Assembly: GCA_012517065.1 (NCBI GenBank)
Contig: JAAYVR010000103.1
Coordinates: forward strand, 1-40,677
Length of the DNA stretch: 40,677 nucleotides
Source: Verrucomicrobiota bacterium
GTDB taxonomy: Bacteria; Verrucomicrobiota; Verrucomicrobiia; Limisphaerales; J093
Direction: 5' to 3'
Below are positions 1-40,180 of the stretch, piece by piece (positions within the stretch are counted from its first letter, which is position 1; each line of letters opens with the position of its first letter). The notes below the pieces were generated by a model. That model ran no database searches. It worked only from the letters and a program-made list of their open reading frames with translations, and was not told the origin of the DNA. Both the position numbers and the translations under genes were made by a program.

Positions 1-430
1 CCAACGCGTTAGAAGAAACACCGACGGTCGGGAACGCGGCCGTCCTCGGCCGCACCAACCTGACAACCGATCGTGTACCAGTTTCAATCACGGAAACCAG
101 CCACCCGAACATTCACCGGTCGGGGGCGGGCAAGAATGCCCGCGCTCCTGCCAGCGCGTTAGAACAAACACCGACGGTCGGGAGCGCGGCCGTCCTCGGC
201 CGCATCAACCCGACAACCGATCCTACGACCTGTTTCGATCATGCAAATCCTGAGCACGAATGTTCACCGGCTGGGGGCGGGCAAGAATGCCCGCGCTCCT
301 GCCGGCGCGTTAGAAGAAACACCGATGGTCGGGAGCGCGGCCGTCCTCGGCCGCATCAACCCGACAACCCATCCTACGACCTGTTTCAATCATGCAAATC
401 CTGCGCCCGAACATTCACCGGCTGGGGATG
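1..430 (+). repeat. Tandem ~150-bp palindromic repeat (family A), three units
   Basis: Units start at about 1, 151 and 302, giving a period of 150-151 bp; the third unit is cut at about 430. Each unit holds a hairpin GCGGGC-AAGAAT-GCCCGC (first copy 126-143), the near-palindrome CCGACGGTCGG, a second hairpin GCGGCCG-TCCT-CGGCCGC, and a less conserved spacer ending in ATTCACCGG. No convincing reading frame runs through it. More copies lie at 640-850, 24535-24780 and, inverted, at 35828-36215. Probably a non-coding intergenic repeat. Confidence 0.85.
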
Positions 431-504
431 CCCAAACACCGTGTCTGTCCCCATACGGGCCCATTCGCCCTCGCCGCTGATCCCGATGGTTTCTACCCCG
501 GAGC

Positions 505-600
505 CGCGGATGCAGTGGGCGGTGGTAGGCGCGAAGCGTTTGGAGTGCGGCAGCTTGCTGCCGCTTTGTTTGCATTCACAAACTCGGTGCCTGTCCCCAT
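505..600 (+). repeat. Family B palindromic repeat with 11-nt tag
   Basis: A ~95-bp unit with the perfect hairpin GCGGCAGC-TT-GCTGCCGC (547-564), ending in the tag TGCCTGTCCCC (588-598). A second tag, TGTCTGTCCCC, lies just upstream at 442-452. Other family B copies are at 17524-17620 (inverted), 24345-24412, 36246-36345 (inverted) and 40084-40180. Bases 431-504 and 601-640 show no gene. Confidence 0.8.
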
Positions 601-639
601 ATCCCATGTTCACCATCAGCCCGATGACCGGTCATGCGA

Positions 640-850
640 CCCGTTTTCATCCCCCAAATCGGGCCACCGAACTCAAACCGGCTGGGTGCGGCGAAGAATC
701 GCCGCGCTCCTGCCGGCGCGTTGGAGCAAACACCGACGGTCGGGAGCGCGGCCGTCCTCGGCCGCATCAACCCGACGACCGACCCTATGCCCCGTTTAGA
801 TCACGCAAATGCGGCGCCCGAACATTCACCAGCCGGAATGCGCCAACAAC
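640..850 (+). repeat. Family A repeat, single diverged unit
   Basis: One more family A unit. Its first hairpin is GCGGCG-AAGAAT-CGCCGC (688-705), where the 126-143 copy has GCGGGC/GCCCGC. Two stem base pairs are swapped on both sides, so pairing is kept. Bases 851-1003, up to the 3' end of the first minus-strand gene, hold nothing I recognise. Confidence 0.75.
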
Positions 851-3790: not shown

Positions 3791-3843
3791 ACCGCATCGT
3801 CACGTTTAACATTGGTTAGATCACAACCACGGAGTCAAAGTTG

Positions 3844-5985
3844 CTAATTGACCGGAGGCTGTTGCAATGACCCTTGATTGTTGGACTGCGAGTTCTGCTG
3901 GGTCGGAACAGGCCTTCGGTCTCCGGACAGACCGCCACCGAAGCGGTTTGGGTCACCCGCGAAACCGCCAGGGTCGCCTGGACCGCCACGGCTACCGCCG
4001 CGTCCGTCCGGACCTCCACCGAAAGGCGGGAAACGTTGCGCCGCCGGCGGCAGGTGTTTTTCGATGCCCGCCCGCACATCAACCAACGTGAGATGGCCGT
4101 TCTTGTCACCATCCCATTTCTCGAACAATTTGGCGAAACCGTCGGTGAATTCATCCAGCGTTACAAATGAGTCCTTGTCCCTGTCTAGTGTCTGGCAGAG
4201 AGATCGCCCGAACATGTTTCCAAGGCTGCTTCCGCCGCCAAAGCCGCCCGGGAATCCAGCTCCTGCAATCATGCCCTCCGATTTCCCGGCGAGCTGGTCG
4301 CGAATGGATTCTGTGCGCGCCACAGTAAACGGTTTGATGGGCTTGGTCTGGCCGCCGAAAGGTCCGAAACCGCCGCGTTGCAGGGTTTCCCCAGCCACAA
4401 CCTTGTCAAAGCGCGCCAGTTTTTCCGCGGATTCTTCTTGTACGGCCAGGCGAATTGCAGCGGCAACTTCATCAACCTGTTGAGCGAATCGCTCCGGCCG
4501 GAAGAGTGTCCTGCTGAACTCGGTCAGCCGTTCGATGTAGGGCCGCTTGAACGCTTCGACTTTGAACATGCGTTCGAGGAAATAGTTATCTCCCTGCCAT
4601 GGACGGTGGATGCTCAACTTGTCGCGCTGTTCCTGGCTGGCGCGGTCGAATTGCCCCCATGAATGATCTTGGTCCCATGGTATGAACTGGAACTGTTGAG
4701 TCTTTGGGTGGAGATACAGGTAAAGGTTCTGGCCCGGCCCAAGAATCCCGTCAAGGTCAGAGAGATAAACCATCACGGCCATGAACCGAGCGAACTCCGG
4801 CAGGTCGATGAACTCGCCGATGTGCGCAGCGAAAGTCGCGTCGTCGGCGTGGGTCACAAAGCGAGACAATTCCATAACAGCCTTTTTCTGCTCATCATAC
4901 AGGGCGCCTTTGGGATCGTAGATTTGGTTATACGCACTCCAATCAGCGCCGAGGTCGGTGAACAGCGAAGGGGTTACGGGCTTGAAGAGCGCACCGCGTT
5001 TGGTGCCGAAGTGTCGTTCCGCAAACTTCTTGTCCACAGCCTCGCTCATCGAGTAAAGACCGAGGTATTGCCGATCATGCTTCCCCGGCACGGTCACAAA
5101 CACCCTCGCATAAGCGGTCCGTGGCGCGGGAACACCTGCGTCGCGGTACAAGCGATAAGCCAGCACCTCATTCATCATGCTGACATCGGTGACGTTGTTC
5201 TGGAGGTTCAATGTTGTGACGCCATCAAGGCTCTGGCCTTTGACGTACTTGTTAAGCTGAACTTTCAAGGAGCGTTTCAAGGAATTGCGCGACTCCATGA
5301 ATGTCCCGTTCCCTTTGTATCGCACGCCCACATCGTACAACAATCGGCCCTCGAACTCCAAATCCGCATGCACATACTCAAACTCGAACCCCAGGGCGGC
5401 CCCGATGCCGTTCCGTTTTCCTTCCGGGGCGAGCAACATGGCTGAAATGCCTTCCGGCGCCGGGTTTCGGATTTTACCGAGACCAGCCCGGATTTGGCTT
5501 TCATCGAGCTTGCCCGATTGGTTGGTGTCCCAAGCCTTGAACCAGCGTTCTGCCAGCCCTGCGAACTCGTGCTGTGAAATGCGCCCATCTCTGTCGGAAT
5601 CGCCGTGGCTCATGAAAACCGGAGCAAGCGACCTGTCACCGTTTGCGCCTCTGCCGCCTCCGGGCCGACCGCCTTGCGGGCCGCCAAAGAATGGATTGCT
5701 GCCGCCTTTGGGCTCCATGGCTTCCCACTGGTCTGGTTCGAACTTCAGATGAATGGTCCAGACGTTGGTAAGGTTGTAGATGCGGTCGGCGTCCAGGATT
5801 TGGTTGAAAGCTGAGCCGCTCAGGGAAACCCGCTGCAGCGCGACTGCTCCCCAGAAAAGGACCAAGAACAGAAGCGCTCCGACAAAGACCGTCAGGGCAC
5901 GGCGCAAGCGCATGGCTCTACTCCGTGCCGCTGGCCCTTTCCCACCGTGAAATCCTGTTTCTCGTGTTTGGGCTCGTTCTGTCAT
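3844..5985 (-). CDS. CotH-kinase-like membrane-anchored protein with four EF-hands (713 aa)
   Basis: One transmembrane helix lies at about residues 30-49 after a basic stretch, so the body is likely outside the cytoplasm. The central domain (about 70-500) matches the CotH family: IPWDQDHSWGQF at 435-446 is the family's D-x-D-H-S-W-G core, and the YxGLYSMSEAVDKKF strand is near 307-321. CotH of Bacillus spores is an atypical protein kinase; no activity is shown here. Four EF-hand loops flank it: D129-E140 and D153-E162 are inserted near the N-terminus, and loops at about 601-612 and 625-636 follow the domain. Glycine-rich linkers (about 95-115, 535-590, 655-690) separate the modules. It is the first gene of a likely operon with two propellers. 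Translation could also begin at Met25 (5913). Calcium control of surface assembly is an inference. Confidence 0.85.
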   Translation of the reverse strand: MTERAQTRETGFHGGKGPAARSRAMRLRRALTVFVGALLFLVLFWGAVALQRVSLSGSAFNQILDADRIYNLTNVWTIHLKFEPDQWEAMEPKGGSNPFFGGPQGGRPGGGRGANGDRSLAPVFMSHGDSDRDGRISQHEFAGLAERWFKAWDTNQSGKLDESQIRAGLGKIRNPAPEGISAMLLAPEGKRNGIGAALGFEFEYVHADLEFEGRLLYDVGVRYKGNGTFMESRNSLKRSLKVQLNKYVKGQSLDGVTTLNLQNNVTDVSMMNEVLAYRLYRDAGVPAPRTAYARVFVTVPGKHDRQYLGLYSMSEAVDKKFAERHFGTKRGALFKPVTPSLFTDLGADWSAYNQIYDPKGALYDEQKKAVMELSRFVTHADDATFAAHIGEFIDLPEFARFMAVMVYLSDLDGILGPGQNLYLYLHPKTQQFQFIPWDQDHSWGQFDRASQEQRDKLSIHRPWQGDNYFLERMFKVEAFKRPYIERLTEFSRTLFRPERFAQQVDEVAAAIRLAVQEESAEKLARFDKVVAGETLQRGGFGPFGGQTKPIKPFTVARTESIRDQLAGKSEGMIAGAGFPGGFGGGSSLGNMFGRSLCQTLDRDKDSFVTLDEFTDGFAKLFEKWDGDKNGHLTLVDVRAGIEKHLPPAAQRFPPFGGGPDGRGGSRGGPGDPGGFAGDPNRFGGGLSGDRRPVPTQQNSQSNNQGSLQQPPVN

Positions 5986-6817
5986 TCGACGGTCATTCCG
6001 GCGTCCATACGACCTATCATGCGCAGAACTCGGTCAAAACCCGCCATGTTTGTCGAATGGCCAGAGCCGCACCCATGCCAGCTTGGGCTAACGTTACAAG
6101 TCCGGTCCCTTGCGCGCGTCGGAGACTCACCGCGGATTTCCGAGACCAATTCACCTGAAAAAAGACCATCGGCGGCCATAAGAGAGAGCATGGACCGCAG
6201 AGCCTCGCTAACACCCCAGCCCCGTTTGACTCCCGGAGCGTGTTGTGCGGTTTTACCCCCAAATAGAGGGACAGACACGATATTTCCGCACGCCATATGC
6301 GGAATCGCACCGCTGAAACGACGAGAAGTCCGATCACATCACCGTCCAGATATCGTATGGATTACGCGGCGAGAACAAGGATGGAAGGATTCTCTCGCTT
6401 TCGCTAACCTCAACCCCATGAACGCAAATAACCAGATGGGTTCAGCACTGACGCGGGAGCAGATTCTGGCGGCCATGCGCGCTTTGTCTGATGCCCTCTG
6501 AAAGCGGGTTCTTGAGTTGTGCCATCGCGCCGCACCGGGAGCGTTCAGCTTGTGTTGGTCCCGTCACTGTTCAAGTTGCCAGTGCTGCGACACCAAAATA
6601 GGGGTGCAGCTTGGCAAGAACCGGTTGGCTCCTCGGTTCAAGTTTATGCTAATTTTCCTCCTAAACGCGCCCAGCGTTAGGATCGAAGCAGCAGAATCGC
6701 TGCTTCACGGTGGGCGGTGGGCAGCGTGAACAATTGAATGGCGGGAGCCAGATCGCGATGGCTGATCGTCGGCGGCTTCGGAATCGTCTTCCCCATTCCG
6801 CACAGCGCTAGAAGCCT
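5986..6817. other. Gene-poor gap upstream of the secreted-protein run
   Basis: No intact gene is seen. There is a diverged copy of the 11-nt tag at about 6266-6277 (AGGGACAGACA) and the gene remnant at 6418-6501. A 27-residue ORF (6738-6821) with a hydrophobic centre has a stop overlapping the ATG at 6818 (ATGA); it could be a coupled leader or chance. This stretch must hold the promoter of the minus-strand operon beginning at 5985, but no clear -35/-10 pair was found. Confidence 0.5.
6418..6501 (+). pseudogene. Possible N-terminal remnant of a nucleotidyltransferase-like protein
   Basis: From the ATG at 6418 the frame gives TREQILAAMRALSDAL and then TGA. Beyond the stop, the same frame gives KRVLELC, which loosely matches the continuation (KRG-x-x-GELC) I associate with DUF6036-type nucleotidyltransferase-like proteins. 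Only about 35 residues can be compared. The match comes from memory of the family and could be chance. Confidence 0.2.
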
Positions 6818-8898: not shown

Positions 8899-10698
8899 AT
8901 GAAGCTCAAACACCCCCTCCTCGCCCTCGCGTTGACGCTGCCCCTGGCAGGCGCGAGCGCCCAAACCACGCAGAAAGTCACTGTCACGGCAGGGATGCTA
9001 TCTGCCTCAAGCGTCTATGCCGATTACACGCCCATCAGGGCGTTTGACGGCGTCATGTCGCAGAACACAGGCTGGTGTGCTGCGGGTGGTGTGAGGCAGG
9101 CCTGGCTGGCCGTGGACTTCGGCACGCCCCGCCACATTGCCTACGTGCAAGTCTTCCCGGACCGTTACATCGCTGGCGACACCGCGTATGGCTATCTCGA
9201 CCGCTTCCGAGTCGAGATCCCGAGCAACGACACCTGGCAGGCTGTCACGCCGCTGATCGCCACGCCGCAAGAGCAATGGTACTCAGCCGACGTGAACTTC
9301 GCCACCGCGCAACTGCGCTTCTGGTGTGAATCGGACGGCAACGGTCCGCAGGTGAAAGAGATTGAAATCTACGAATTCGTGCCGCCGCCTCCGGTCACTT
9401 TCACCACCAACACCTTCGCCGTGGGCGATGAAGACAGCGGACCCGATTGCGTGGCTTTCGCGGATGTGAACGGCGATGGCCGGCTGGACTTGATCAGCGC
9501 GAATTACGGTTTCCGCTGGGCACTGCCCGGTGAACCGGGCGGATGGAACACCACGCTCACCGTGTTGACCAACAACCGCAGCGGCGCGTTTGGCTCGAAT
9601 GCGTCCCTGACGATCGGCCGTGGCCCGACCGCCGTCGTTGCGGCGGATGTGAACGGCGATGGCCGGCCGGACTTGATCAGCGCGAATGAGACGGACAACT
9701 CGCTGACCGTGCTGACCAACAATGGCAATGGCGGCTTCGGGTTCAAAGCCACCCTGCCGGTGGGCAGCCAACCGCACGGCCTCGTGGCCACGGATGTCAA
9801 CGGCGACCTCGCGTTGGATCTGGCGTGTGTAAACGCCGGCGCAAACTCGGTGTCCGTGCTGCTGAATCAGGGGAGCGGCGTTTTCGCGAGTCTCGCGACA
9901 CTGCCGGTGGGCAACCAACCGGTGTTCATTGCGGCGTCCGATGTCAATGGGGATGGCCAGCCGGATTTGATCACCGCGAACAAGGCTGACGATTCGCTGA
10001 CCGTATTAACGAACAACGGCGGTGGTGGCTTTGGCTTCAATGCCACGCTCCCGGTTGGGCATTTCCCCAATGCGATTTCGGCGGCGGATTTGAACGGCGA
10101 TGCCCGAGTGGATTTGGTCAGCGTGAATTGGGGCGCGGCCACGATGACGGTGCTTACGAACAACGGTAGCGGCGGCTTTGGCTTCAACGCCACCCTCGGC
10201 GTCGGCAATTACCCCTCGACCGTGGCGGCGGCGGATTTCAATGGCGACGGCGCGGCGGACCTGATCTGTGCCAGCACGGAAGCCAACTCGCTGCGGGTGT
10301 TCACGAACAACGGCAGTGGGGTCTTTGGCCACGACACAACCGTCGCCTTGGGGCGGATTCCAAATGTGTTCGCCGCGGACCTGAACAGCGATGGCAGAAT
10401 GGACCTGGCCTGCCCGAGCTTTCGTGATGGCACCGTGACGGTGCTGCTCAACACCACGGCCTTTGCCCCTGCGAATTCTCGACCGACACTGACCATCGAG
10501 CGCCAAGCCAACAGCGTGCGCGTGGCGTGGCCGGCGGCGTCACCCGGTTGGTCGTTGCAGCAGAAGCCGGACGTGAACGCCGCGAACTGGCTGCCGAGCG
10601 GTCATGAAGGGTTCGGGATTGCCGACGACGGGCTCAACAAGAGCCTGACGTTGCCAGCCTCGCACGCGAGCCGATTCTTCCGGCTCCTGCATCCTTGA
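8899..10698 (+). CDS. Secreted discoidin-like / FG-GAP repeat protein (599 aa)
   Basis: A signal peptide ends near residue 21 (LPLAGASAQ). Residues 23-157 resemble an F5/8 type C (discoidin) sandwich: AFDGVMSQNTGW, WLAVDFGTPRHIAYVQVFPD and a C-terminal VKEIEIYEF strand, as in carbohydrate-binding modules of the CBM32 kind. Residues about 170-525 carry seven FG-GAP/VCBS repeats, each with a calcium-loop motif such as DVNGDGRLDLISAN, DVNGDGQPDLITAN or DLNGDARVDLVSVN, spaced by about 50 residues and separated by TVLTNNGxGGFG strands. The last ~65 residues repeat the C-terminal module of the preceding gene (WLPSGHEGFG, then SRFFRLLHP). It starts 63 nt after the preceding gene and is likely co-transcribed. 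The substrate is unknown. Confidence 0.85.
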   Translation: MKLKHPLLALALTLPLAGASAQTTQKVTVTAGMLSASSVYADYTPIRAFDGVMSQNTGWCAAGGVRQAWLAVDFGTPRHIAYVQVFPDRYIAGDTAYGYLDRFRVEIPSNDTWQAVTPLIATPQEQWYSADVNFATAQLRFWCESDGNGPQVKEIEIYEFVPPPPVTFTTNTFAVGDEDSGPDCVAFADVNGDGRLDLISANYGFRWALPGEPGGWNTTLTVLTNNRSGAFGSNASLTIGRGPTAVVAADVNGDGRPDLISANETDNSLTVLTNNGNGGFGFKATLPVGSQPHGLVATDVNGDLALDLACVNAGANSVSVLLNQGSGVFASLATLPVGNQPVFIAASDVNGDGQPDLITANKADDSLTVLTNNGGGGFGFNATLPVGHFPNAISAADLNGDARVDLVSVNWGAATMTVLTNNGSGGFGFNATLGVGNYPSTVAAADFNGDGAADLICASTEANSLRVFTNNGSGVFGHDTTVALGRIPNVFAADLNSDGRMDLACPSFRDGTVTVLLNTTAFAPANSRPTLTIERQANSVRVAWPAASPGWSLQQKPDVNAANWLPSGHEGFGIADDGLNKSLTLPASHASRFFRLLHP

Positions 10699-17183: not shown

Positions 17184-18049
17184 ACGCTCACTGGCAGCCC
17201 GCAACATGTAGGAAGCATAATGGAAGCCAGGCAAAAACCGAGACCACTGCGACACCTGACGGCTGCCATATTGCATACGTCTCCCGCAAATCTGGCAAGT
17301 GCGTTGTTCTGCTCGACCGTCAGGCCAGGCCGCAGTTCGACGGGATTCCCGCCGGGTCGGCCTTCCACCGCGACGGAAACCCGGAGTATTTGGACTTATT
17401 CGACAATTTCAGTGAAATTCGCGTGTTCAGTTTGTTTCGTGGTTAGGAATAACAAGGCCGGGGCAAAGCTCCACAATAGGCCCATCCCACCAACGTTTCC
17501 GGGTGTTCAGCAAGGGGTCGTCTGGGGACAGACACGTTCTTTGCGCATAACAACAAAGCGGCAGCAAGCTGCAGCACTCCAAACGCTTCACGCCTACCAC
17601 CGCCCACTGCATCCGCCGCAGCGCGTGAGATACCATCGCGATCAACCGCGAGATCGAACCAGGCCACATGGGGACAGACACGTTGTCGGGTCGGAGCACA
17701 GCGAGTCGCCCCTTGGCTCAGGTGCAAAGCGCCGCGCTAGCACAATCAGGACCGGAAAGCTCTTAGTTTTCCGCGTAAACGCGACAGTCTGGCAGCGATG
17801 GGTTGCACTGCACCTCGGGCGATGCCGCGCCCACGGCTGCCAGAGTCCCGCCTTTAGGCGGCTTTGAAACAAGCATTCGTCGAGCAGTATCACCTCTGAA
17901 CGTTGTACGTTGAGCGTTGCACGTTAAACGTTCTCAACAAGACGACCAAGCTGATAAACCCGTGAAAACTTTCAACTTACAACTTTCAACTTACAACGTT
18001 CAACCGGGCCGCGGGTTTGCCAACCGAGTGGCGTTGTCCCCCGCGGCCG
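17184..18049. other. Gene-free gap with several repeats
   Basis: No supported gene. It holds a family F copy (TTCGCGTG to TTCGTGGTTA, 17418-17445), an inverted family B unit with tag (17524-17620), a second inverted tag (17670-17680) and an inverted family D hairpin (CCGCCTTTAGGCGG, about 17848-17861). From 17896 to 18004 there are short tandem repeats: first near-repeats of ACGTTG/ACGTTA, then two copies of a 16-nt CTTTCAACTTACAA unit. The sigma factor's promoter should lie at the right-hand side of 17184 but was not identified. Confidence 0.6.
17524..17620 (-). repeat. Family B repeat, inverted, with tag
   Basis: Read on the minus strand it has the family order: GCAGTGGGCGGTGG, GAAGCGTTTGGAGTGC, the hairpin with one base difference from the perfect form, and the terminal tag TGTCTGTCCCC (17524-17534 in reverse). 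The stem here reads GCGGCAGC/GCTGCAGC on the plus strand, so one pair is lost. Confidence 0.7.
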
Positions 18050-24101: not shown

Positions 24102-24141
24102 CTACAGTTGCAAACTTTCAGGGGCGCACTCGAATCTACCG

Positions 24142-24268
24142 CCCGCCTATTTTCCACCCTGGTGTAGCCGGAACCAAAGTCGCATAACGGACAGCGCCCC
24201 GGCTCTTGCACCACCCGAACCTTCAACTACGCCGAGTTGGGAAACATGCCCTGCGACTCCGTCGCAAG
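24142..24268 (+). repeat. Family C element, diverged copy
   Basis: Shows the family C core GGAACCAAAGTCGCATAACG and the distal GTTGGGAAACATGCCCTGCG, but its terminal inverted arms (about 24149-24168 and 24225-24247) have many mismatches. It is followed by the TGCGACTCCGTCGCA hairpin. Compare the well-preserved copy at 36399-36501. Confidence 0.6.
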
Positions 24269-24344: not shown

Positions 24345-24490
24345 GATGCAGTGGGCGATGGTAGGCGCGAAGCGTTTGGAGTGCGGCAGCTTGCTGCCGC
24401 TTTATTGTTCACGACCGTTGGTGCTCCTGGACCAGTAATTCCACGGCCGAAGGCCCGGCCCCATACCTGCCTGGGCCAGCGGCATAGGTG
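24345..24490 (+). repeat. Family B then family E repeats
   Basis: Family B with the perfect hairpin GCGGCAGC-TT-GCTGCCGC, but its tag end is replaced by family E from about 24412. Family E reads GACCGTTGGTGCTCCTGGAC, then GGCCGAAGGCC and CATACCTGCCTGGGCCA, and recurs at 40600-40677 with a few base changes. Confidence 0.7.
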
Positions 24491-24508
24491 AAAGCCGCTC
24501 ATTTCACA

Positions 24509-24820
24509 GCCGCCTAAAGGCGGGACTCTGACTGCGGTGGGTGCGGCGAAGAATCGCCGCGCTCCTGTCGGCGCGTTAGAAGAAACACCGGCGGTCGGGA
24601 GCGCGGCCGTCCTCGGCCGCAACAATCCGACGGCCGGAACTTGAACGGCTGGGAATCCACAAACAACGTGTCTGTCCCCATATCCCGTTTCGGATGCGCG
24701 GCCGTCCTCGGCTGCATCAATCCGACGCCCCCGATCCAACACCGGTTTCGATCATCCTGATCCCGCGCCCGTACGTTGACGAGCTGGGGATTGGCAAACC
24801 ATGTGCCTGTCCCCATTTGA
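24509..24820 (+). repeat. Family D hairpin, family A units and two tags
   Basis: GCCGCCTAAAGGCGG hairpin and GACTCT (24509-24530), then a family A unit with GCGGCG-AAGAAT-CGCCGC (24543-24560), tag TGTCTGTCCCC (24669-24679), a partial family A unit with spacer text, and tag TGCCTGTCCCC (24804-24814). Confidence 0.7.
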
Positions 24821-34708: not shown

Positions 34709-34754
34709 CCACGGTCTTGTGCGGTTGGCTCGTTTTGCTAGTGTCCTTGTGCAC

Positions 34755-35810
34755 ATGAAACACTGCCAGTGGATGTCTCTGGCCCTGCTATGCTCGACGC
34801 TGTGTATCGGCGCTGAACGGGTCGTAGATATCTCAGATGCCCAGCCCGGAGCTGTTCCAGATTGTTTCCGCAGCGCACTTGCCGGAACAGGCCAGCCCGG
34901 CGAATGGCGCATCGTTCTGGACGACGTCCCAACCGCACTTGAACCGCTCACACCACAGGCTCAAAGCTCAATCAAGGTGCCCGTCATCGCCCAGGTCTCA
35001 ACCGATCCCACCGACGAGCGCTTTCCTCTGTTGATTCTGGATGACGAGACATACGCCGACTTCACGCTGAGCGTCAAGGTCAAGACCGTGGCCGGGTCCA
35101 AGGAGCAAATGGCCGGCATCGCATTTCGATTACAGGATGAAAAAAACTTCTACGTCCTCAGAATAAGCAGCCTCGGTAACACGTTCCGATTTTACAAGGT
35201 TTTCGACGGCGCTCGCGATAACCCCATCGGCCCCCAAGTCCAGATTGCTTCCAACGTCTGGCACGAAATCTATATCCAATGCGAAGGAAACCGCATCCGA
35301 ACCAAACTGAACGGAGAAGAACTTATCCCCGAGTTGACCGATAACTCCTTTTCCCAAGGCAAAATTGCACTTTGGACAAAGTCGGATTCCGTCAGTTACT
35401 TTCGCGATCTTCGAATCAGCTTCAAACCGCGCGAGCCTCTCGCGGAAACATTGGTGCGCGAGGCTATGCAGCGGTTCCCCAAACTGCTCGCGGTGAAAAT
35501 CTTCTCAACCACACCTGCCAAACCCGAGCTGCACGTGATTGCCAGCAGCGATAAAAAGGACATAGGCCGGCCCGCCGGCAAATACGAACGCGAATGTGTC
35601 TCGGGCAACACCGCTTTCGCAGGCAAATCAGGCGACCGCGCCGTGGTCACCATGCCGCTTCACGACAGGAACGGTGACCCAATCGCAGCCGTGCGCATCG
35701 AAATGAAAAGTTTCCCCGGGCAAACCGACGCAAATGCAGTTGGCCGCGCAACGCCTGTCATCAAGCGCATGCAAGGCCGAGTTCAGTCCCGCGAAGACTT
35801 GATCCAATAG
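34755..35810 (+). CDS. Secreted DUF1080-like protein with C-terminal domain of unknown function (351 aa)
   Basis: ATG 34755 opens a signal peptide (WMSLALLCSTLCIGA); an upstream GTG is less likely. Residues about 20-215 resemble the beta-sandwich of the DUF1080/3-keto-disaccharide hydrolase-like family: YADFTLSVKVKTVAGSKEQM, AGIAFRLQDEKNFYVLRISS, NVWHEIYIQCEGNRIRTKLN, GKIALWTKSDSVSYFRDLRI. Residues about 225-345 are different and carry LLAVKIFSTTPAKPELHVIA, then TMPLHDRNGDPIAAVRIEMK and SFPGQTDANAVGRATPVIKR; the GDPIAAVRI strand is reminiscent of small sensor-like folds, but this is a guess. Catalytic residues were not assigned. It starts 46 bp after ilvB on the same strand; whether they share a transcript is unclear. 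Confidence 0.7.
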   Translation: MKHCQWMSLALLCSTLCIGAERVVDISDAQPGAVPDCFRSALAGTGQPGEWRIVLDDVPTALEPLTPQAQSSIKVPVIAQVSTDPTDERFPLLILDDETYADFTLSVKVKTVAGSKEQMAGIAFRLQDEKNFYVLRISSLGNTFRFYKVFDGARDNPIGPQVQIASNVWHEIYIQCEGNRIRTKLNGEELIPELTDNSFSQGKIALWTKSDSVSYFRDLRISFKPREPLAETLVREAMQRFPKLLAVKIFSTTPAKPELHVIASSDKKDIGRPAGKYERECVSGNTAFAGKSGDRAVVTMPLHDRNGDPIAAVRIEMKSFPGQTDANAVGRATPVIKRMQGRVQSREDLIQ

Positions 35811-35827
35811 ACGCCACACCGTCATCG

Positions 35828-36215
35828 GCAGAAGCGCGGGCATTCTTGCCCGCCCCCAGCCGGTGAATGGTCGGACGCCGCATTTGCGTGATCCAAACGG
35901 GTCGTAGGGTCAGTCGTCACGTTGATTGCGGCCGAGGACGGCCGCGCTCCCGACCGTCGGTGCTTCTTCCAAAGCGCCGGCAGGAGCGCGGGCATTCTTG
36001 CCCGCCCCCAGCCGGTGAACGTTCGGGCGCAGGATTTGCATGATCGAAACAGGTCGTAGAATCGGCCGTCACGTTGATGCGGCCGAGGACGGCCGCGCTC
36101 CCGACCGTCGGTGTTCATTCTAACGCGTCGGCAGGAGCGCGGCGATTCTTCGCCGCACCCAGCCGGTGTATGTTCGGTGGCCCGATTTGCATGATCGAAA
36201 CGCGTCGCAGTACCG
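35828..36215 (-). repeat. Family A repeats, three inverted tandem units
   Basis: The same ~151-bp unit as at 1-430 but in the opposite orientation: hairpin cores recur near 35836, 35987 and 36137. The first two have GCGGGC/GCCCGC stems and the third has GCGGCG/CGCCGC. The cluster lies between the 3' ends of two converging genes. The gap 35811-36530 holds no gene. Confidence 0.85.
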
Positions 36216-36245
36216 GTCAACGGGCTGATGGGGAATATGGGATAC

Positions 36246-36345
36246 GGGGACAGACACGTTGTTTGGGCATAGAAACAAAGCGGCAGCAAGCTGCCGCACT
36301 CCAAACGCTTCGCGCCCACCAACGCCCACTGCATCCGCAGCAGCG
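36246..36345 (-). repeat. Family B repeat, inverted, with tag
   Basis: Tag GGGGACAGACA (36246-36256), then CGTTGTTTGGGCATAG, a perfect GCGGCAGC-AA-GCTGCCGC hairpin and GCACTCCAAACGCTTCGCGC. This is the mirror image of 505-600 and 40084-40180. Confidence 0.8.
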
Positions 36346-36398: not shown

Positions 36399-36501
36399 AT
36401 ATTTCCCAGCCCGGCGTAGCTGAAGGTCCGAGGGGGTGCAAGAGCCGGGGGCGTTGCCAGTCAGGCAACTTTGGTTCCGGCTGCGCCGGGCTGGGAAATA
36501 T
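36399..36501. mobile_element. 103-bp MITE-like element with 22-bp terminal inverted repeats (family C)
   Basis: Left arm 36399-36420 (begins ATATTTCCCAGCCCGG) and right arm 36480-36501 are inverted copies differing at one of 22 positions. The interior is non-coding and contains CAACTTTGGTTCCGG. Related copies lie at 39721-39842 and, more diverged, at 24142-24268; all three share the ACCAAAG core and a nearby TGCGAC-type hairpin. No target duplication was identified with confidence. A transposed non-autonomous element or a REP-type unit are both possible. Confidence 0.6.
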
Positions 36502-36530
36502 GCGGGCTCTGGGAAACCAGCCGCATCCTG

Positions 36531-37319
36531 TCAAGGTGCGGCCCACAGCTCGCCCGGCGTCTCTTTGAGGGCTCTCGGCGGACCAAGAATTACGGCGGCT
36601 ATAAGCGCCTGACTGGCACTGCGCGGGTTGCCAAGCATCTCACGAACCTGCTGCACTTCCGGAGACACACCGCCTGTCGGCACGCGCGACCGCTCATATC
36701 CACCTACGCCACGCAGCCGCGCGATTTCCTCGAGTCTGGCTGCGGTTTGCGCGGCAAGTTCAGCAGCGCGTTTGTACGCCGCCGCCGAGGCTTCAAGTTT
36801 CGCAAGCTCAGTGGTCACACTGGTGCCTGTGTAAGACTCTTCGGCTTTGGAATGCGGCGGCGCGGCAGGAGACACAGGCGTTGGTGCCGCCTGCACCGGA
36901 CGCGCCGGAGCGCCTTGTTCTGTAGGAGCCCGCTGAACATGTTCTTGTGGCTTCGTCGGCCCGGCTTGAGGGATCAGAGGCGGCGGAACCGGTGTCTGTT
37001 GCGAAGGCTCTGCACCTGTCGGCATTTGCTCGGGAACAACTTCAGGTTCGGGTGCGCCGACATCGCCTTCGAGGAACCGCCGCAATTGCTCTTCCCAGTC
37101 AAGCTTGGGTGGCGGCGCTGGTTGTGGCGGTTGAACCGTGGGAGGCAGCTGACCTTGCGGCGAACGCCTGGTCACCATCGGAGGACCCTGCAGGTTTCGT
37201 CGCCGTTGTTGTTCGAGCTCTTTCTTCTGCTTGAGCCAGTTGGAAAGCGCCGATAACAACACGATGACCAGGAAAACCAGCAGGCCTTCTATCGATGCGA
37301 TTATCGTCAGCAAGGTCAT
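36531..37319 (-). CDS. Membrane-anchored proline-rich protein in the nfeD-floA operon (262 aa)
   Basis: One transmembrane helix (about residues 8-25, GLLVFLVIVLLSALS), then a basic/Gln-rich helix (KQKKELEQQRRRN), a long Pro/Gln/Ala-rich probably disordered region (about 45-160), a helical stretch (TTELAKLEASAAAYKRAAEL, about 165-200) and a C-terminal conserved-looking segment (QVREMLGNPRSASQALIAAV). The disordered tail would face the cytoplasm. ATG 37319 has AGGAG nine bases upstream. It follows floA by 21 nt on the same strand, so co-expression with the flotillin is likely. I know no named family for it; a tethering or assembly partner of flotillin is an inference. Confidence 0.75.
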   Translation of the reverse strand: MTLLTIIASIEGLLVFLVIVLLSALSNWLKQKKELEQQRRRNLQGPPMVTRRSPQGQLPPTVQPPQPAPPPKLDWEEQLRRFLEGDVGAPEPEVVPEQMPTGAEPSQQTPVPPPLIPQAGPTKPQEHVQRAPTEQGAPARPVQAAPTPVSPAAPPHSKAEESYTGTSVTTELAKLEASAAAYKRAAELAAQTAARLEEIARLRGVGGYERSRVPTGGVSPEVQQVREMLGNPRSASQALIAAVILGPPRALKETPGELWAAP

Positions 37320-39584: not shown

Positions 39585-39720
39585 GGCCCGTACTAAATCA
39601 GCCACATGGCGTGGCTCCGACAAGCTCCCAAGGAACACGTAAGCAGTGTCATTCCGCAATCAGCGTTGAATTCTACTGGCAGCAAAGGCCAAACACCATG
39701 GGCCAAGGATTGTCTAGCCC

Positions 39721-39842
39721 GCCCATTTCCCAGCCCGGCGTAGCGGGAACCAAAGTCGCCTGACGGGCAACACCCCCGGCTCTTCATCCCCGAACGTTAA
39801 GCCGCACCGGCTTGGGAAATATGCCCTGCGATTCCATCGCCG
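39721..39842 (+). repeat. Family C element
   Basis: Left arm ATTTCCCAGCCCGGCGTAGC (39724-39743) and right arm 39801-39822 (GGCTTGGGAAATAT) are diverged inverted copies, with the core GGGAACCAAAGTCGCCTGAC between them. Followed by TGCGATTCCATCGC. Same family as 36399-36501. Confidence 0.65.
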
Positions 39843-39912
39843 GGAAAACCACTTTGATCAAGCCCACACTCGACGCGGCGCTGCCGGGTAACTCCCAACC
39901 AACTGTAACTGT

Positions 39913-40076
39913 TCCGCCTAAAGGCGGGACTCTAACGGCCGCAGGCGTGGCATCGCCCGATGCGCCGAACAACCCATCGCCGCTAGAGTTCCGCGTTTAC
40001 GCGGAACACATGCAGTTCACTGAACAGTGCTAATGGTCAGGTTAATGAAACTGTTCCGCCTAAAGGCGGGACTCTA
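39913..40076 (+). repeat. Family D hairpins
   Basis: TCCGCCTAAAGGCGGGACTC occurs at 39913 and again at 40055, and a second hairpin TTCCGCGTTTACGCGGAA lies between them. Another copy lies at 24509, and inverted ones near 17769 and 17848. Confidence 0.7.
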
Positions 40077-40083
40077 GCGGCCG

Positions 40084-40180
40084 TGGATGCAGTGGGCGTT
40101 GGCAGGCGCGAAGCGTTTGGAGTGCGGCAGCTTGCTGCCGCTTTGTTTCTATGCCCAAACAACGTGCCTGTCCCCATATC
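40084..40180 (+). repeat. Family B repeat with tag
   Basis: GATGCAGTGGGCGTTGGCAG, GAAGCGTTTGGAGTGC, perfect hairpin GCGGCAGCTTGCTGCCGC, then TTTGTTTCTATGCCCAAACA and tag TGCCTGTCCCC (40165-40175). Confidence 0.8.

Follow-up and report, generated by a model that had tools for sequence, protein, structure and literature searches.

The closest described relatives of the repeats reported here are REP elements, hairpins accompanied by REP-associated tyrosine transposases (RAYTs). In Nunvar et al. 2010 (PMC2817692), the REPs on either side of RAYT genes have GT(A/G)G heads, and selection for complementary mutations is pointed out. A GTAG-tagged REP superfamily, which includes the Verrucomicrobium O. 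terrae, comprises subfamilies with alternative complementary stem residues (PMC3733652), and compensatory changes are common in the REPINs of Pseudomonas fluorescens SBW25 (PMC3116915). How far REP recognition relies on the head, the loop or the stem varies between systems; in S. maltophilia group 3, stem mismatches reduce cleavage (PMC8266576). Stem-paired REP subfamilies are thus already published, and because compensatory changes are on record for other REPs, the headline observation made on the present DNA is not new and its mechanism is known in kind.

The window, meaning the whole stretch of DNA that was analysed, consists of 40,677 nt from a Verrucomicrobiota bacterium (contig JAAYVR010000103.1 of GCA_012517065.1, positions 1-40,677, forward strand). 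An earlier note had described in it a hairpin repeat, family A, with two stem alleles in which both sides were changed together, and had placed both alleles in a first cluster and again, inverted, at 35836-36150. A search with the degenerate pattern GCGGSSAAGAATSSCCGC, zero mismatches being allowed to count, gave 7 matches where 0.11 were expected by chance, at 126, 277, 688 and 24543 on the plus strand and at 35836, 35988 and 36139 on the minus strand. The allele GCGGGC-AAGAAT-GCCCGC was found at 126-143 and 277-294 and, inverted, at 35836-35853 and 35988-36005; the allele GCGGCG-AAGAAT-CGCCGC at 688-705 and 24543-24560 and, inverted, at 36139-36156. Both statements were borne out; the copy at 24543 had been missed.

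The family-A hairpin has a 7-bp stem, closed by an A-T pair, and a 4-nt loop, which is its computed minimum-energy fold as single-stranded DNA. A conserved head, GGAGC, lies on the strand complementary to the AAGAAT orientation; read on that other strand, it precedes six of the seven copies, the exception being that at 35836 (GAAGC). A mechanical scan of the window for GGAG followed by a perfect hairpin returned, besides two chance-like matches, only the kinds A, B and C. The elements found by the searches are the following:

31..53, plus strand: B-type REP, degenerate head GGAAC (sequence; D4/D7 repeat families)
126..148, minus strand: A-type REP, GGAGC GCGGGCA TTCT TGCCCGC (pattern match and GGAG hairpin scan)
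181..203, plus strand: B-type REP, GGAGC GCGGCCG TCCT CGGCCGC (GGAG hairpin scan and B search)
277..299, minus strand: A-type REP, stem GCGGGCA/TGCCCGC (pattern match and GGAG hairpin scan)
332..354, plus strand: B-type REP (GGAG hairpin scan and B search)
542..564, plus strand: C-type REP, GGAGT GCGGCAG CTTG CTGCCGC (GGAG hairpin scan)
688..710, minus strand: A-type REP, stem GCGGCGA/TCGCCGC (pattern match and GGAG hairpin scan)
743..765, plus strand: B-type REP (GGAG hairpin scan and B search)
24378..24400, plus strand: C-type REP (GGAG hairpin scan)
24543..24565, minus strand: A-type REP, stem GCGGCGA/TCGCCGC, the copy missed earlier (pattern match and GGAG hairpin scan)
24598..24620, plus strand: B-type REP (GGAG hairpin scan and B search)
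35831..35853, plus strand: A-type REP, degenerate head GAAGC, stem GCGGGCA/TGCCCGC (sequence and pattern match)
35928..35950, minus strand: B-type REP (GGAG hairpin scan and B search)
35983..36005, plus strand: A-type REP, stem GCGGGCA/TGCCCGC (pattern match and GGAG hairpin scan)
36079..36101, minus strand: B-type REP (GGAG hairpin scan and B search)
36134..36156, plus strand: A-type REP, stem GCGGCGA/TCGCCGC (pattern match and GGAG hairpin scan)
36280..36302, minus strand: C-type REP (GGAG hairpin scan)
40119..40141, plus strand: C-type REP (GGAG hairpin scan)

The arrays are located between the main genes, the third between the convergent genes 34719-35810 (+) and 36531-37319 (-). All three families share a common design, namely GGAG, one unpaired base, a 7-bp stem and a loop of 3-4 nt: A consists of GGAGC plus GCGGCGA or GCGGGCA with loop TTCT, B of GGAGC GCGGCCG TCCT CGGCCGC, and C of GGAGT GCGGCAG CTTG CTGCCGC. 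With up to two mismatches allowed, about 315 copies of A, 322 of B and 370 of C were counted genome-wide, compared to 10, 0 and 0 for the reversed patterns used as controls, giving more than 1000 copies of these short palindromes in the genome (hereafter G000). Since several contigs end in or beside arrays, copy number is probably underestimated, and the repeats probably contribute to the fragmentation of the assembly into 298 contigs. GGAG hairpins with at most one mismatch numbered 158 in 318 kb of G000, a sample partly picked for holding repeats and hence no measure of genome-wide density, compared to 2 in the reversed sequence.

Successive A and B hairpins point in opposite directions and are separated by about 31 nt where their heads face each other and by about 71 nt where their tails do. 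The A/B unit recurs in tandem arrays with a period of 147-151 nt; these are inverted REP doublets repeated in arrays, as in REPINs and BIMEs. The conserved unpaired tetranucleotide that REPs carry at the 5' foot of the hairpin is here GGAG, present at 110 of 138 sites anchored on the tail (nearly all the A-type ones). Where the tagged superfamily has GTAG or GT(A/G)G, the hairpins here and beside homologous RAYTs have GGAG. We conclude that the window hairpins are REP elements in REPIN/BIME-like arrays.

Resemblances to the described systems extend to several levels. Like the REPs, BIMEs and RAYTs of Stenotrophomonas and others (PMC2817692), they are high-copy hairpins with a conserved 5' tetranucleotide, in alternating tandem arrays to which a RAYT gene is tied, and their stems are changed by complementary mutations; the head, however, is GT(A/G)G there, and GGAG plus one unpaired base here. 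With the GTAG superfamily (PMC3733652; Opitutus terrae GTAG-20) they share stems within 6-9 bp, short loops, dimers, clusters and occurrence in Verrucomicrobia, but the published tags are GTAG, GYAG, GYRG, GTRG, GTMG and GTGG, with no GGAG among them. The SBW25 REPINs (PMC3116915) are likewise RAYT-linked inverted doublets with a spacer and compensatory changes, whereas the doublets here mostly combine the two REP types A and B and are often repeated in tandem; the Pseudomonas REP 16-mer GTGGGAGGGGGCTTGC (PMC3116915) also has the string GGAG beside its palindrome. The TnpAREP/REP pair of S. maltophilia group 3 (PMC8266576) combines an HUH single-tyrosine enzyme with a cognate hairpin (8-bp perfect stem, 3-nt loop) and is comparable in this, but has a GTAG head; the GGAG head proposed here is known from sequence, through its conservation rather than from cleavage mapping.

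Pairing within the stems was measured on sites chosen by head and loop alone (GGAGY-N7-TTCT-N7). All seven pairs were formed in 164 of 186 such sites. In the 179 sites where five or more pairs form, pair 5 was C-G in 117, G-C in 59 and mismatched in 3, while pair 6 was G-C in 99, C-G in 78 and mismatched in 2; the arms were thus near-perfect and one-arm intermediates rare. In a second check, for which the 138 sites were chosen by the tail sequence outside the hairpin, the loop was TTCT in 110 and all seven pairs were formed in 104; about 20 of the remaining sites resemble another element. The two stem forms of the earlier note exist as described, but they are not the only ones: in the sampled sequence, perfect A copies comprised about 92 CG, 56 GC and 18 CC stems, this third allele (GCGGCC/GGCCGC) being present genome-wide, and family C has the alternative stems GCGGCAG, GCGGCGG, GCGGTGG and GCGCCGG, each with its complement. 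The result that the earlier note had named as counting against its proposal, only two alleles genome-wide and no further covarying pairs, was thus not obtained.

The analysis was then extended to four genomes, pairs 5-7 being left free. The paired fraction was 0.72-0.87, compared to 0.38-0.56 after shuffling; shuffles within each genome failed to reproduce the pairing, G032 being borderline (1/2000), and twelve fully paired upper stems were found. The earlier note had proposed collecting copies from the genome and its relatives for a covariation test. On 92 distinct rows from the four genomes, in which G-U cells are present, the upper stem does covary, with a score of 0.372 compared to 0.103 for shuffled alignments and at most 0.130 for slid structures. 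As the shuffle preserves column make-up and not relatedness, more weight is given to the fact that different genera have different paired stems. Because pairing is far above chance when the search leaves it free, the data support real paired stem changes and a structural constraint on the hairpin rather than simple drift.

A RAYT gene of 241 codons lies elsewhere in the genome (G000:C169:6940-7662). Its product scores 84 bits against NCBIfam NF047646 (REP-associated tyrosine transposase, cut-off 80), has TnpAREP as closest solved structure (PDB 4er8, E 5e-9), and carries the HUH motif PNHVH, the tyrosine motif YIELNP and the threonine of the N-terminal VTFRL, that is, the HUH and single-tyrosine domain of the REP-associated family. 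The gene is embedded in an A/B array: upstream of it are four intact A hairpins, and downstream both A and B hairpins. A second RAYT-like gene, on contig C289, scores 75.7 bits, just below the cut-off, and has an HYH motif; the GGAGT hairpins that surround it have CTTG or CTCG loops, and match family C in head and loop. Genes flanked by putatively cognate REPs thus occur on C169, on C289 and among homologues in other genera. This arrangement suggests that the A/B and C hairpins have separate partner enzymes, and that the two RAYTs may mobilise the REPs beside them. IS200/IS605 was considered as a direct source of the hairpins and rejected: contig C124 carries an IS200-type transposase gene and no A, B or C hairpin.

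At 13 RAYT homologue loci of other genomes, 45 GGAG hairpins were found in 36.5 kb, compared to 4 in 55.5 kb of control sequence taken arbitrarily from related genomes that also carry RAYTs; of the 256 possible heads, GGAG was the commonest. The RAYT-flanking stems vary by genus yet pair (GCGGACA/TGTCCGC, GCCGAGC/GCTCGGC, GCCGGCG/CGCCGGC), these examples being picked for perfect pairing and showing stem diversity, not pairing rate. GGAG hairpins are also present at RAYT loci with 38-49% identity, in Verrucomicrobia, Thiohalocapsa, Armatimonadota and Melainabacteria records, whereas more distant RAYT loci favour GTAG (13 versus 3). The one unusual feature is the GGAG head, which accompanies this RAYT lineage in several phyla; no earlier report of a GGAG-headed REP was found in the literature searched, in which few subscription journals were covered.

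Taken together, the hairpins are very probably REPs, non-autonomous mobile DNA recognised by a RAYT as folded single-stranded DNA, and it is this recognition that would maintain the paired stems. The RAYT (HUH, single-tyrosine) encoded elsewhere in G000 would recognise the 5' GGAG tag and short hairpin in single-stranded DNA, and cut and join the strand close to it. Two oppositely oriented REPs, an A and a B, would together behave as a unit that spreads to hundreds of sites, some units growing into tandem arrays with a repeat length close to 150 nt. As the enzyme requires the hairpin, only copies whose arms still pair would keep spreading, leaving stem alleles that differ by compensated changes around a fixed tag. 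The earlier note had proposed selection on an RNA or cruciform structure rather than drift. The constraint on pairing holds, with covarying pairs in the sister families and in other genera, but an RNA or a cruciform is not the strongest candidate for the substrate: single-stranded DNA bound by the transposase, its recognition driving the covariation, appears likeliest, since the hairpins have REP anatomy and flank RAYT genes, and the RAYT relatives that have been studied act on single-stranded DNA hairpins.

An orthologous site shared with a congener (G001) bears on how the arms change. One A unit is present near 5700 of G000:C107 and two near 3800-4000 of G001:C10, with both flanks alignable, which indicates a change in unit number and not an insertion; the two species also differ in the first A stem, CG/CG versus GC/GC. 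Such a difference in both arms at once, like the near-perfect arms and rare intermediates, is what template-switch (quasi-palindrome) repair would produce by copying one arm onto the other, without selection on structure. As a full explanation this is unlikely: it accounts neither for the constant GGAG head, nor for the hundreds of sites occupied, nor for the association with RAYTs. Template-switch correction or gene conversion could nevertheless contribute to arm identity alongside transposase recognition, and conversion from another copy could also explain the C107/C10 stem difference. No clean empty site could be identified for window arrays 2 and 3, the congener flanks lying on different contigs or beside a different gene, and no A, B or C hairpin was found in the congener stretches examined around these sites. 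No RAYT was found in G001, which has 211 hairpins; the congener contig with the left flank of the RAYT locus ends close to the match, so the gene may be missing from the assembly rather than from the genome. Near 5650 of C107 (L120, about 640-660), an upstream open frame seems to continue into the repeat as far as the TGA within TTGATGCGG, so that the array may supply its stop codon.

The position of the arrays downstream of genes, the third of them between two convergent genes, raises another explanation, in which the hairpins are kept as RNA elements at transcript 3' ends, for termination or mRNA protection. Other REPs have been proposed to act in this way, and the G-U cells of the cross-genome set would fit selection on an RNA stem. 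We consider it very unlikely as the main cause, as the hairpins in the sequences inspected are not followed by a T-run, a scan of the window with the curated covariance models of Rfam at gathering scores gave no family match, and the unpaired conserved GGAG head and the RAYT-gene surroundings are left unexplained; an RNA role may coexist as a secondary one. That a few founder alleles were copied around, the covariation reflecting shared descent with no structural constraint, is hardly credible: three alleles do make up nearly all family-A copies, leaving few independent events inside G000, but B, C and the C variants add paired states there, twelve fully paired upper stems exist across four genomes, within-genome shuffles lack such pairing (borderline solely in G032), and different paired stems beside the RAYTs of other genera contradict it.

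Recognition of the hairpin by a transposase would link the covarying stems to a mobile system and supply a natural variant of the guide sequence with which to study the choice of cleavage site by TnpAREP enzymes. A tentative extension, which we rate slightly below an even chance, is that this RAYT lineage switched its guide from GTAG/GTGG to GGAG across phyla (Verrucomicrobiota, a Thiohalocapsa, Armatimonadota and Melainabacteria MAGs), and that the base after the head, together with the loop, separates co-resident RAYT-REP pairs (GGAGC with TTCT/TCCT versus GGAGT with CTTG). The distribution of heads may reflect a single change from GTAG to GGAG. If the switch is real, cleavage at CT should persist, because A3G4 is kept under the published guide rule, and CC should replace CA. 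Two RAYT-REP pairs with separable heads and loops in one genome would allow recognition rules to be compared side by side.

Several other repeats were encountered. A fourth hairpin repeat, GTTCCGCC-TAAA-GGCGGGAC, is present in the window at 17761-17798, 24500-24537, 39904-39941 and 40046-40083, and in L287 at 1588 and 1730; contig C288 ends in a RAYT-like fragment with a similar hairpin, GTTCCGCG-TAAA-CGCGGAAC, close by, and hairpins of this type may form a third REP family that has an enzyme of its own. The motif GGGGACAGACACG adjoins the hairpin arrays (6263-6290, 17520-17547, 36242-36269), and a sequence like it is found upstream of a further, multi-copy Y1 transposase. Of this Y1-type transposase (MRLPRIKLQGKTVVYHCMSRIVG...) there are six near-identical starts, each truncated by a contig end in roughly the same position; it is probably a multi-copy element collapsed in the assembly:

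G000 C78:4-171, Y1-type transposase start
G000 C281:4-165, Y1-type transposase start
G000 C59:4-165, Y1-type transposase start
G000 C84:7799-7960, Y1-type transposase start
G000 C20:50237-50389, Y1-type transposase start
G000 C40:14493-14681, Y1-type transposase start

A dispersed repeat, GCCCGGCGTAGC...GGAACCAAAG, occurs in the window at 24141-24200, 36448-36507 and 39717-39776, and at 24135 and 36452 similarity to the congener breaks off at or close to this repeat. Finally, a 147-nt in-frame repeat (ADVNGDGRPDLI...) at 9460-10419, inside the open reading frame 8899-10698, probably encodes protein repeats of the FG-GAP/VCBS type and is unrelated to the hairpins despite its similar period.
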